Positions 2,982-22,730 of a DNA stretch of 39,594 bases are shown here, one piece after another. The notes below the pieces were generated by a model. That model did no database searches, was not told the DNA's origin, and was given only the letters and a program-made list of their open reading frames with translations. How positions within the stretch are numbered: position 1 is the first letter of the stretch; each line of letters opens with the position of its first letter. The position numbers were made by a program, and so were the translations under genes. This DNA is from an uncultured Lachnospiraceae bacterium (GTDB lineage Bacteria > Bacillota > Clostridia > Lachnospirales > Anaerotignaceae), in NCBI GenBank assembly GCA_944380405.1, contig CALWHO010000026.1, forward strand, positions 1 through 39,594, given 5' to 3'.

Positions 2982-3064
2982 GATTAAAACGCCTGCCTTT
3001 CAATTTGTATTTGTGGGCATATAAAATAAATATGATTGCGAACGAAACGTTCTGATTATATATA

Positions 3065-3081
3065 TAGCAATGACTATGCCA
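3065..3081 (-). promoter_or_regulatory. Sigma-54 (-24/-12) promoter of the amidohydrolase operon
   Basis: Read on the minus strand this is TGGCATAGTCATTGCTA, an almost exact match to the sigma-54 consensus TGGCAY-N5-TTGCW. The invariant GG (3080-3079) and GC (3068-3067) are separated by exactly ten bases. Transcription should begin near 3055, giving a leader of about 75 nt before the start at 2981. An enhancer-binding activator is encoded directly upstream. Confidence 0.9.
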
Positions 3082-3147
3082 AAAATATGTCAAACTTGTC
3101 AAAAATATAAAAAAAAGGACAAGTTTGTTATTTTACAAACGTAGTTT

Positions 3148-3431
3148 TATGCAAAAATGCATAAAATTTGTGGTGGAAGGGAGAAATGCCTTGTTTTGCT
3201 GCATGTAAAAATGCATAAATATGATTTTTTGCATTAAAAATTAGCTTGCAAACTAAATAATTTTTTATTTAACGTATGGAAAAGTATAGTATGAATAAAA
3301 TATTTTGCATTGAAACTATATGCAAAAATGCATAATAAAAAATATATATTGTACATTATTATTTAAAAATGCTGTGAAATCAACAAAAAAATAGATAATA
3401 TGCAAAAATGCATAACATGCATTTTTGCATA
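3148..3431. promoter_or_regulatory. Array of TATGCA-N4-TGCATA palindromes (predicted activator enhancer sites)
   Basis: Five 16-bp inverted repeats with an A4 or T4 spacer lie at 3148-3163, 3202-3217, 3319-3334, 3399-3414 and 3416-3431. Three are perfect (3148, 3319, 3399); those at 3202 and 3416 differ by two and one base. A degenerate sixth copy is at 3220-3235. They lie about 70-350 bp upstream of the -24 element, the usual range for sigma-54 enhancer sites, and fill the gap between the activator and the operon. Binding by the adjacent activator is inference. Outside these sites the 2982-3441 gap holds no gene. Confidence 0.8.
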
Positions 3432-3441
3432 TATGGTAAAA

Positions 3442-4839
3442 TCAGTAAGTTATGTTATATTTGCTCAATTTTCTGGATATTGTGGACTGGTCTGTTTTTA
3501 ATACCTTTGCAAGAGTAGAGCCATTTTTATATATTTTTATGTATTCTTCCAGAATATGCTTTTCATATATTTCTGTAAGCTCTTTTAAAGATGTGTCTGG
3601 AGGTATGCTTTGGAAGTCAAAAGGTATGTCTGATGAGCCTATTTTTAACATACCCATAGCCTCATATGCTTCCTTTGATGTTATAATGCCGTCTGAATTT
3701 TGAATTATAAGCCTTTCAACTACGTTTCTTAATTCTCTTACATTTCCTGGCCAGCTGCACTGGCAAAGGTATTTTACGGCTTCGGCATCTATTGTTTTTT
3801 TCATGTTGTATTTGGCATTAAAAAGCCTTATAAAATGGTCAGTAAGAAGGGGTATGTCCTCTCGTCTTTTTTCAAGAGGTGGTACCTTTATCTCTATAAC
3901 ATTAAGACGGTAATAAAGGTCTTCCCTAAACTGCTTTTCCGTAATTTTTTCTTTTAAATTAACATTTGTGGCTGTTATAAGACGAAAATCCACCTTTATA
4001 AGTTTGTTTCCTCCAAGACGCCTGAACTCTCTTTCCTGTAAAACTCTTAAAAGCTTTGACTGAAGCATAAGAGGAAGCTCGCCAACTTCGTCAAGAAGAA
4101 GTGAACCGCCTTGAGCTGCTTCAAAAAGGCCTTTTTTACCCTTTGGACTGCCGCCTGTAAATGCTCCCGGCTCATAACCAAAAAGCTCGCTTTCAAGAAG
4201 CTGTTCAGGAATTGCGGCACAGTTTATTTTTACAAAGGGCTTATTTTTTCTCTTGCTGCTGTGGTGTATAATGTCGGCTATATGTTCTTTTCCGACGCCT
4301 GATGGCCCTGTTATAAGTACTGTTACGTCTGTTTCTGCAATTTTTTTTGTTTTTTCCACAACCTGCTGCATTACCTGGCTTTGGTATATAAGGCTGCCTT
4401 CTCTGTCTATAACCTGTTTAAGAAGCTGGTTATATTCCTCCATTTCGGCAACCTTTTCTTTTGTTTTTGTAAGCTCTGTAAGGTCTGTAAGTAAGTTTAT
4501 AACAAGTATCAGATTGCCGTCTTCGTCATAAATAGGTATGCCTCTTACTTCAAATGAATTGCCGCCAGATGCTTCCTGTGTAAGTATGACTTCCTTTCCT
4601 GTCTGAAGCACTTTTACAGTGGCTGAAACGGATACAGAGCCTTCTTTTTCCATTTCATACATTGTTTTGCCTTTATACATTTCCTTACTGTGGCCAGTTA
4701 TTCTTGTATGGGCGTCATTTAAAAATATAACTTCGCCATTTCGGTTTGTTATGTTTATACCTACAAGGTCGTTATATAGAAGTTCCTTGCAAAGTAGGTT
4801 TTTTGTACGTTGAGAAAGATTGTTAAAAAATGTATACAT
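3442..4839 (-). CDS. Sigma-54-dependent enhancer-binding activator (PAS-AAA+-Fis-type HTH)
   Basis: A 465-residue bacterial enhancer-binding protein. A PAS sensory domain covers about residues 20-125, a coiled linker follows, the AAA+ domain spans about 150-375, and a Fis-type helix-turn-helix is at the C-terminus (LAKVLKTDQSTISRKLSKYN). Walker A is GPSGVGKE and Walker B LLLDEVGE. The sigma-54 contact loop reads GAFTGG instead of GAFTGA, a mild variant. I start it at the ATG at 4839 (GAAGGGAC upstream) rather than 28 codons earlier, where the added residues do not look like protein. Its 3' end abuts the palindrome array of the amidohydrolase operon, so that operon is its likely target. The PAS ligand is unknown. 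Confidence 0.9.
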   Translation of the reverse strand: MYTFFNNLSQRTKNLLCKELLYNDLVGINITNRNGEVIFLNDAHTRITGHSKEMYKGKTMYEMEKEGSVSVSATVKVLQTGKEVILTQEASGGNSFEVRGIPIYDEDGNLILVINLLTDLTELTKTKEKVAEMEEYNQLLKQVIDREGSLIYQSQVMQQVVEKTKKIAETDVTVLITGPSGVGKEHIADIIHHSSKRKNKPFVKINCAAIPEQLLESELFGYEPGAFTGGSPKGKKGLFEAAQGGSLLLDEVGELPLMLQSKLLRVLQEREFRRLGGNKLIKVDFRLITATNVNLKEKITEKQFREDLYYRLNVIEIKVPPLEKRREDIPLLTDHFIRLFNAKYNMKKTIDAEAVKYLCQCSWPGNVRELRNVVERLIIQNSDGIITSKEAYEAMGMLKIGSSDIPFDFQSIPPDTSLKELTEIYEKHILEEYIKIYKNGSTLAKVLKTDQSTISRKLSKYNITY

Positions 4840-4899: not shown

Positions 4900-4928
4900 A
4901 GGATAAATACTTTTTTTTGACATGTCAA
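4900..4928 (-). promoter_or_regulatory. Predicted housekeeping promoter of the activator gene
   Basis: On the minus strand TTGACA (4928-4923) and TATCCT (4905-4900) are 17 bp apart, a good -35/-10 pair, about 60 bp upstream of the start at 4839. The -35 sits in a perfect 12-bp palindrome, TTGACATGTCAA (4918-4929), which could be an operator. Confidence 0.5.
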
Positions 4929-4957: not shown

Positions 4958-4973
4958 AGGCATGAATTTTGCT
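4958..4973 (+). promoter_or_regulatory. Sigma-54 (-24/-12) promoter upstream of the hydrogenase operon
   Basis: The sequence AGGCATGAATTTTGCT carries GG (4959-4960) and GC (4971-4972) separated by exactly ten bases and matches TGGCAY-N5-TTGCW except for the first base. Predicted start of transcription is near 4984, about 110 bases upstream of the GltD-like gene. No TATGCA-type palindrome lies between it and the activator, so any enhancer would have to act from the array beyond the activator gene (over 1.5 kb) or be a different sequence. Confidence 0.7.
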
Positions 4974-5015
4974 ATGAAAAATATCATATTTGTTGTAAAC
5001 TATTTTATTATACTG

Positions 5016-20762: not shown

Positions 20763-22730
20763 ATGGAAGAGAAAATGCTTATGAAAAGTATTTCATTTAT
20801 TGCCTTTTCTTCGGAATATGCATCAAGACTTGAAGCATTTAGAGAAAACAGCCGTAAGGATATAAGAATTGAAATTACAGAGGAAGAATATATAAAACCC
20901 TTGTGTAAAGAGCTTTTTCAAAAGGGTATAAGGGTTTTTATGTGCGAAAAAACGCCTTTTGAAAAGTATGAAACCGCTATTTATATACCTGTTATATGTA
21001 AGACGGCAGACTTTATGCAGGTCTATATAAGCAGTGATGAAATGAACAACATTTTTGTTTTATCTGATGAACCAGATGTAATAAACAAGAAAATATTGGG
21101 ATATTATTGGAATGTAGAACCTGTAATTATTGACGCAGGTATGACCATAGACAAGAGAAAGGCATTTTTTAAGGAGGCAGCTTCATTAAAGGCTACATGC
21201 CTTGGCCCTGCAAGATTTGCCATGGAGGCAGGTCTTTGCGGTGTAAGATATAAAACTGTTTTGCCTTCTGACGAAACTCTTAATGATGCCGTGAATACTG
21301 CCTTGGCTGTTTTAAAGACAAAAATGGAAGAAACAGAGAAAAATAAAGAAAACCTCCTTAGAATGGAGCAGTATAAGGTTGTATTTAACTTTACAAATGA
21401 CGCAATACTTGCAACAGACGAAAACGGCATAATAATAGCTGCAAATGATATGGTTTATAAATTCCTTAAACTGGATAAAAAAGACCGTTTGGAGGGCAAA
21501 AGAATTGACGCTGTTGTGCCTGGCACAAAAATGATAAAAGCCATGGAAAAAGATGGCGGAGATATAGGCGATGTGTTTGAGCTTCCTGCCTGTACAGTTC
21601 TTACCCACAGAATACCTATTGAAATAGACGGCAAAAGACGAGGGGTTGTGTCTACGTTTCAGGATTTGGCAGTGCTTCAGGAGCATGAGAAAAATGCCCG
21701 TGTCCATGCCATGAAAAGCAAAAAAGGCTTTGCTGCAAAGTACAGCTTTGAAGATATAAAAGGCTCAAGCCAAATAATAAAAGAAGCCATAAACATAGCT
21801 AAAAGCTATGCCATGTCCACATCAACTGTTTTGATACTTGGCGAAACAGGCACAGGTAAAGAGCTTTTTGCCCAAAGTATACATAATAACAGCAAGTGTT
21901 CAAAGGGCCCTTTTGTGGCTGTAAACTGTGCTGCCATACCTAAAAATCTTCTGGAAGCTGAGTTTTTCGGTTATGAAGAAGGTGCTTTTACTGGTGCTTC
22001 AAAAGGCGGTAAAGCAGGCGTTTTTGAAATGGCTCATAAAGGCACAATATTCCTTGATGAAATAGGCGAAATGCCTCTTGAAATGCAGGTGCAGCTTTTA
22101 AGAGTAATACAGGAAAAAGAAGTCCGCCGTATAGGAAGTGACAAGGTTGTGCCTGTGGAAGTAAGGGTAATAGCTGCCACAAACAGGGATTTACAGGGCG
22201 AAGTTATAAAGGGCAACTTTAGAGAGGACTTATATTACAGACTTAATGTTTTGGAGCTTAAACTGCCGCCTTTAAGAATGAGAAGAGATGACATTAAGGA
22301 AATAGCCGTAAGTTTTTTAAAGGGCTTTGACTACAAAAAATATAAGTCAAACGAGGCTTTATGGGACGAGATAATTGAAGAAATAGAAAAATTTGACCTT
22401 AAGGGTAACGTCAGAGAGCTTCAAAATATACTTGAAAGAATTTGTGTAATGATGGATAACAAGCATATAAATACGTCAGCACTTTTTATGGAAATAAGTA
22501 AGGGCATGAATATGTCTTCAAAAGCCATAAGACGAGAGGAAAATAAAAGTACTTCCATGAAATATGAAGATGAGAGCTTTTCAAAAAGTGAAAGTGATTT
22601 ATGGGAGAAAAACCGCATAATAAAAGCTCTTAAAAATAACGGTTTTTCACGTACAAAGGCAGCAGCAGAGCTGGGTATAAGCCGTTCTACACTTTGGAAT
22701 AAAATGAAATATTACAAAATAGAGGTATAA
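20763..22730 (+). CDS. Sigma-54-dependent activator with PrpR-like sensor domain
   Basis: A 655-residue enhancer-binding protein. The N-terminal ~195 residues resemble the PrpR-N sensor fold (CLGPARFAMEAGLCGVRYKT), which in PrpR senses a small carbon metabolite. A PAS domain follows (about 215-310), then the AAA+ domain (Walker A GETGTGKE, canonical GAFTGA loop, Walker B IFLDEIGE) and a C-terminal Fis-type helix-turn-helix (SRTKAAAELGISRSTLWNKM). I start it at the ATG at 20763 with TGGAGGTG upstream; the frame is open 56 codons earlier but that part is not convincing. Divergent from the alcohol dehydrogenase, its likely target. Confidence 0.88.
   Translation: MEEKMLMKSISFIAFSSEYASRLEAFRENSRKDIRIEITEEEYIKPLCKELFQKGIRVFMCEKTPFEKYETAIYIPVICKTADFMQVYISSDEMNNIFVLSDEPDVINKKILGYYWNVEPVIIDAGMTIDKRKAFFKEAASLKATCLGPARFAMEAGLCGVRYKTVLPSDETLNDAVNTALAVLKTKMEETEKNKENLLRMEQYKVVFNFTNDAILATDENGIIIAANDMVYKFLKLDKKDRLEGKRIDAVVPGTKMIKAMEKDGGDIGDVFELPACTVLTHRIPIEIDGKRRGVVSTFQDLAVLQEHEKNARVHAMKSKKGFAAKYSFEDIKGSSQIIKEAINIAKSYAMSTSTVLILGETGTGKELFAQSIHNNSKCSKGPFVAVNCAAIPKNLLEAEFFGYEEGAFTGASKGGKAGVFEMAHKGTIFLDEIGEMPLEMQVQLLRVIQEKEVRRIGSDKVVPVEVRVIAATNRDLQGEVIKGNFREDLYYRLNVLELKLPPLRMRRDDIKEIAVSFLKGFDYKKYKSNEALWDEIIEEIEKFDLKGNVRELQNILERICVMMDNKHINTSALFMEISKGMNMSSKAIRREENKSTSMKYEDESFSKSESDLWEKNRIIKALKNNGFSRTKAAAELGISRSTLWNKMKYYKIEV

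Follow-up and report, generated by a model that had tools for sequence, protein, structure and literature searches.

A sigma-54 promoter and an array of putative activator sites upstream of a probable pyrimidine-degradation operon in an uncultured Lachnospiraceae bacterium

Sigma-54 regulons of the Clostridiales have been catalogued by Nie et al. 2019 (PMC6615313), and in that study a PAS-AAA+-HTH activator is encoded beside its target operon, has multiple upstream sites, works on promoters with the consensus TTGGCAT-N5-TTGCT and serves amino-acid metabolism or fermentation. Activator sites of this class are reported there to lie mostly 100 to 250 bp upstream, and fifteen of the 39 activator groups use TGT-N10-12-ACA motifs. 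Going by its main table (Table 1), none of the 39 groups has a pyrimidine-degradation operon. Clusters for reductive pyrimidine degradation (PydA/B/C, PMC7332683) bring together the genes for dihydropyrimidinase, ureidopropionase, PreA/PydA and DUF1097, and in Anaerostipes hadrus the DUF1097 gene (ycdZ) sits in ycdZ-preTA-hydA (PMC11036815). Reductive pyrimidine catabolism in Pseudomonas putida is regulated by PydR, which appears in PMC7332683, citing Hidese et al. 2012, as a RutR-like repressor. In E. coli, the sigma-54 activator gene ygeV has as neighbors hyuA, for a hydantoinase, and ygeY, for a peptidase-like hydrolase, in a cluster that concerns purines and uric acid, not pyrimidines. We found nothing relevant on sigma-54 control of dihydropyrimidinase or pyrimidine degradation in the literature searched.

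The locus described here lies in a 39,594-nt contig (CALWHO010000026.1, assembly GCA_944380405.1) from an uncultured Lachnospiraceae bacterium of the family Anaerotignaceae; we refer to this whole stretch of DNA as the window. The locus is organized like the Clostridiales regulons above, and its mechanism is that of a textbook enhancer-binding-protein system. Its gene content, taken with that of related loci, resembles the known reductive pyrimidine clusters, from which it differs in having a sigma-54 activator and a palindrome array where PydR is a repressor, and in the presence, in one type of operon, of DUF5058 together with an unclassified membrane protein. Taken as a whole, the sequence evidence is best explained, we think very probably, by an array that serves as the upstream activating sequence of the adjoining activator, driving pyrimidine-degradation operons.

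We read the minus strand of the 460-nt intergenic region (2982-3441) directly and found TTTGGCATAGTCATTGCTATAT, a −24/−12 element with standard spacing. The −24 GG is at 3080-3079 and the −12 GC at 3068-3067, so that the two dinucleotides lie 12 bp apart within TGGCAY-N5-TTGCW, as expected of this promoter class. The site itself, TTGGCATAGTCATTGCTA (TTGGCAT-N5-TTGCT; 3082-3065, minus strand), is canonical, in agreement with the original prediction of a near-perfect promoter, and an equivalent was present in all 14 promoter regions that we collected. Transcription of the hydrolase operon is predicted to start at about 3055.

Upstream of this element, between the activator gene and the operon, lie six putative activator sites of the form TATGCA-N4-TGCATA, each scored by its match to the 12 defined positions. 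The site nearest the promoter (3148-3163, 12/12) is centered 75.5 bp upstream of the −24 GG and is retained in the sister species (G001). It is followed by a 10/12 site found by the motif scan (3202-3217), a degenerate 9/12 site (3220-3235) whose equivalent in the sister species is 12/12, and a 12/12 site (3319-3334) found by the scan and the sister comparison. The distal end is a doublet, its proximal half 12/12 (3399-3414) and its distal half 11/12 (3416-3431), with 17 bp from center to center. All spacers are A4 or T4. Thus, the five copies and degenerate sixth that had been claimed from inspection of the letters, A4/T4 spacers included, resolve into three perfect, two near-perfect and one weak palindrome. 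This is far above chance: the intergenic region has five sites of at least 10/12, a number that none of 300 dinucleotide shuffles reached (mean, 0.2), and four of at least 11/12, for which the shuffles averaged 0.03. A loose scan of the whole window, allowing three mismatches, gave 41 matches against 35 expected and thus no enrichment, so the signal lies in exactness and clustering. Across the genome's 209 contigs (2.03 Mb), the exact palindrome turned up at four places: three belong to the window array, and the fourth, on contig C40, precedes a second copy of the hydrolase gene, whose start lies 217 bp further downstream; a reversed control pattern did not occur at all. A lone ATGCA-N4-TGCAT palindrome on contig C35 (9154-9167) lies away from both operons and is probably there by chance.

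The adjoining gene (3442-4839, minus strand) encodes a protein with the PAS, AAA+ and Fis/TyrR-like HTH domains that had been read from its translation. Its start codon is probably at 4839 and not at 4923, where the open reading frame begins, because orthologs align from 4839 and AGAAGGG precedes it. A Pfam search returned PF00158 (240 bits) and PAS, with HTH_50 just under its cut-off (26.1 against 27). The protein thus has what defines a sigma-54 activator: an AAA+ domain with Walker motifs, a GAFTGA-type loop, a regulatory domain and an HTH. The loop reads GAFTGG, as it does in 10 of 12 aligned orthologs, and other GAFTGA variants are reported to be functional in Clostridiales (PMC6615313). 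The genome has one sigma-54 gene. Activator orthologs in relatives of the same family are 51 to 74% identical, and the HTH segment DQSTISRK is identical across all aligned M20-linked activators. Two named regulators were considered and rejected as identities for this protein: PrdR, the proline reductase activator, as the NCBIfam equivalog NF041552 gave 366 bits against a cut-off of 795, and YgeV, whose match (42% identity) is limited to the AAA+ and C-terminal HTH part and leaves the regulatory domain unmatched. A further sigma-54-activator-like gene is present in the window at 21762-22619 (plus strand; open frame of 712 amino acids).

Three genes, all on the minus strand, make up the target operon. 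The first (1719-2981) encodes an M20 hydrolase of the hydantoinase/carbamoylase family (TIGR01879), a probable beta-ureidopropionase (PydC) by its sequence relatives, which include the N-carbamoyl-beta-alanine amidohydrolase 8c46 and the beta-alanine synthase 1r3n; its best NCBIfam name is an "allantoate amidohydrolase" subfamily. The second (901-1641, first ATG at 1635) encodes a DUF5058 membrane protein, identified by domain search, and the third (205-885) a membrane protein without a family that always adjoins DUF5058. We infer that these two are a probable importer subunit and its probable partner. Structures predicted for them from seven-sequence alignments had mean pLDDT values of 41 and 53, too low for use, and a literature search on DUF5058 returned no paper. 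As a possible further member of the operon, a gene for a DUF2812 protein of about 415 amino acids lies downstream of the second membrane protein gene in several genomes (L042, L044 and L045); the window contig stops before the position where such a gene would fall.

The window operon encodes only the hydrolase of the dihydropyrimidinase/hydrolase pair that marks reductive pyrimidine degradation; relatives have both genes, as does a second operon elsewhere in the genome. This second operon, M20 hydrolase-dihydropyrimidinase-DUF1097, is split between contigs C40 and C126, which appear to join through the second hydrolase gene since the ends of the two contigs are identical to the window's hydrolase sequence over 66 and 36 bp. 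Its dihydropyrimidinase shares 95% identity with its counterpart in Tyzzerella sp. An114 (G008), whose score of 499 bits exceeds the cut-off of 393. The gene order in Anaerotignum lactatifermentans is M20-dihydropyrimidinase-DUF1097-PreA, and at locus L075 it is dihydropyrimidinase-NCS1 permease-M20-PreT-like protein-PreA. In three genomes (G008, G011 and G033), the activator gene has two neighbors that run in its own direction, one encoding beta-alanyl-CoA:ammonia lyase and the other a class III CoA-transferase; the lyase is so called from its sole sequence match, PDB 4mtu, and a match to it was found in 12 of the 12 genomes checked. On this composition, in its own genome and in relatives, the consistent reading is that the hydrolase belongs to reductive pyrimidine (ureide) degradation and feeds beta-alanine use. 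The operon had originally looked like a new substrate uptake-hydrolysis pathway, which the same composition contradicts; the uptake branch, DUF5058 with its partner, is the sole part that might be new.

The same switch could instead control another ureide pathway, acting on hydantoins, allantoate or N-carbamoyl amino acids (for example, N-carbamoyl-glutamate or -aspartate) and not on dihydropyrimidines. Both the hydantoinase and the carbamoylase families are promiscuous, and the allantoate name of the hydrolase subfamily points the same way, as does the lack of a PreA hit over the cut-off in the window genome. Against this, the operons of A. lactatifermentans and L075 include PreA, the dihydropyrimidinase passes its equivalog cut-off where the allantoinase and hydantoin-propionate models fail, and the lyase gene adjoins in three genomes. 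We therefore regard another ureide pathway as unlikely. PreA scored over the cut-off in G029, G049, G055 and L075; it did not do so in the window genome (a MAG, 92% complete) or in several relatives, so that uracil itself may not be the substrate there. Dihydropyrimidines or ureides may be what the window organism takes up in place of uracil; a role of DUF5058 and its partner as importers would agree with this, and ureide uptake is probably what these two proteins serve.

We looked across 84,980 species genomes for relatives of the hydrolase and obtained 74 loci, of which 73 included sufficient upstream sequence. Two or more sites scoring 10/12 or higher were present upstream of the hydrolase gene at eight of nine loci with the activator and at none of 64 without it (Fisher p = 6.7e-10, a value that overstates the certainty, as the hydrolase loci are related and not independent). 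At the ninth activator locus, L075, the operon begins with the dihydropyrimidinase gene, and four sites together with a sigma-54 promoter precede that gene. Clostridium sp. MD294/ASF356, Chakrabartyella piscis and a Selenomonadaceae MAG have no close activator anywhere in the genome (best identity, 28 to 35%); they keep the hydrolase and lack the palindrome sites. Chakrabartyella even keeps the whole M20-DUF5058-membrane protein operon, with neither activator, palindromes nor sigma-54 site. Among relatives that keep the operon, then, the palindromes are present with the activator and absent without it, which is the conservation the original prediction had called for and the behavior of an upstream activating sequence, here seen across both loci and genomes.

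The motif together with a −24/−12 element was found at 14 promoters, the window's own and 13 more: the second copy in the same genome; one each in G001, G008, G011, G019, G026, G029 (A. lactatifermentans DSM 14214), G033, G049 (Anaerotignum sp. MB30-C6, with ATGCT as its −12 element) and G055 (A. neopropionicum DSM 3847); two in G015; and one at L075. Over 40 sites, the central four palindrome bases were A or T at 152 of 160 positions. Two of the 13 further promoters carry sites although they are unlinked to the activator gene. One is that of the second operon (C40/C126), with one perfect site, one 11/12 site and AGGCAC-N5-TTGCT; the other is in G015 (L224), where the hydrolase and activator genes are on different contigs and sites together with TTTGGCACAACTATTGCTATAT precede the hydrolase gene. 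In G019 the activator gene lies behind the operon, and the sites are nonetheless at the hydrolase promoter. Such rearranged and unlinked loci favor action in trans over a reading of the palindromes as a terminator or RNA hairpin belonging to the activator gene.

Many dimeric regulators recognize palindromes this short, and a protein other than the activator might occupy the sites, such as a repressor that works on this promoter. However, the sites track the activator across the 73 loci and across whole genomes, unlinked cases included, and their position, 65 to 370 bp upstream of the −24/−12 element, is typical for this activator class; we consider such a regulator very improbable. A reading of the palindromes as A+T-rich repeats that arose by chance, or as terminators or RNA hairpins belonging to the activator gene, has a negligible probability. 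In most genomes they do come immediately after the activator gene, and a short hairpin could form from each, but the stems are just 6 bp with two G/C pairs, the sites in G019, G015 (L224), L075 and the second copy are not behind the activator gene and still precede the operon, and the shuffles exclude chance.

The sites that we assign to the activator also share an arrangement. In the window, its second copy, G001, G008, G033 and G011, the distal end of the array is a pair of sites with centers 17 bp apart, and a third site follows 61 to 80 bp after it, counting some members that score just 9/12. A 17-bp doublet is also present at L075, and G026 and G055 have 19-bp pairs. Measured from the promoter, all six site positions in the sister species lie within 3 bp of their counterparts in the window, even though much of the intervening sequence differs; in the 3202/3220 pair, the stronger site of one species corresponds to the weaker site of the other.

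The promoter, the sites, their co-occurrence with the activator and the operon contents are all read from sequence, and from these we infer the binding, inducer, looping, substrate and transport as follows. The PAS domain would sense a metabolite of the pathway, with dihydrouracil and N-carbamoyl-beta-alanine as candidates. The activator would bind the TATGCA-W4-TGCATA sites, oligomerize, reach sigma-54 RNA polymerase by DNA looping and open the promoter with ATP. One activator would in this way control two operons, M20 hydrolase-DUF5058-membrane protein and M20 hydrolase-dihydropyrimidinase-DUF1097, which together would form the hydrolytic end of the pathway, from dihydropyrimidine through N-carbamoyl-beta-alanine to beta-alanine, CO2 and ammonia. 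Beta-alanine would pass onward, probably via beta-alanyl-CoA:ammonia lyase, and ureides would probably enter through DUF5058 and its partner. A broader proposal, which we put forward tentatively and at rather less than even confidence, is that this is an unrecognized sigma-54 regulon for reductive pyrimidine degradation across anaerobic gut Clostridia, with a new motif, a recurring architecture (a 17-bp doublet and, 61 to 80 bp closer to the promoter, a single site) and a new importer of N-carbamoyl-beta-alanine made up of DUF5058 and its partner.

These results turn an uncharacterized activator into a specific, testable regulon with one DNA motif, two operons in the genome and a defined metabolic route, and they give a first functional lead for DUF5058. 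They suggest how fermenting gut anaerobes may control the release of ammonia and beta-alanine from pyrimidines; enzymes of the reductive pathway are also used by gut bacteria to convert 5-fluorouracil (PMC11036815). The system is carried by the type strains A. lactatifermentans DSM 14214 and A. neopropionicum DSM 3847.

A second sigma-54-like site in the window, AGGCATGAATTTTGCTAT (4958-4974, plus strand), points in the opposite direction to the hydrolase promoter and faces a two-gene operon (NADH/glutamate-synthase-like and [FeFe]-hydrogenase-like) whose true start is at about 5097. No good palindrome was found near it, the main array being 1.5 kb away. The same gap in the sister species (L035:9531) holds TTTGGCACGGTTTTTGCTATAT, which is not aligned base for base with the window site.

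Other clusters with dihydropyrimidinase and M20 hydrolase genes were seen that lack the palindrome upstream. Anaerotignum sp. MB30-C6 has a second, separate cluster (L225, 9833-17062) of dihydropyrimidinase, permease-like, M20 hydrolase (71%), PreT-like and PreA genes, with no palindrome sites in front. In Marinisporobacter and Vallitalea MAGs (L105, L107 and L109), a different activator (38 to 41% identity) adjoins dihydropyrimidinase and M20 hydrolase genes, accompanied at L105 and L109 by NCS1-permease-like and PreA-like genes; these loci have sigma-54 sites, and their upstream repeats are TGCATCA elements instead of the palindrome. Sigma-54 control of pyrimidine degradation may thus extend beyond this family.

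Two further observations come from G015. On contig C7 (L036, 8003-8270), the activator gene is followed at once by two palindromes and a sigma-54 site, but that strand carries no gene after them; the promoter seems to have lost its operon, and the hydrolase gene is located elsewhere with its own sites. On contig C3 (L037, 5268-5484), a paralogous activator with the recognition helix DRTTISRK instead of DQSTISRK adjoins TGTGCA-N4-TGCACA palindromes and a sigma-54 site, before the gene for a 408-amino-acid protein, possibly a diverged pair of motif and helix.
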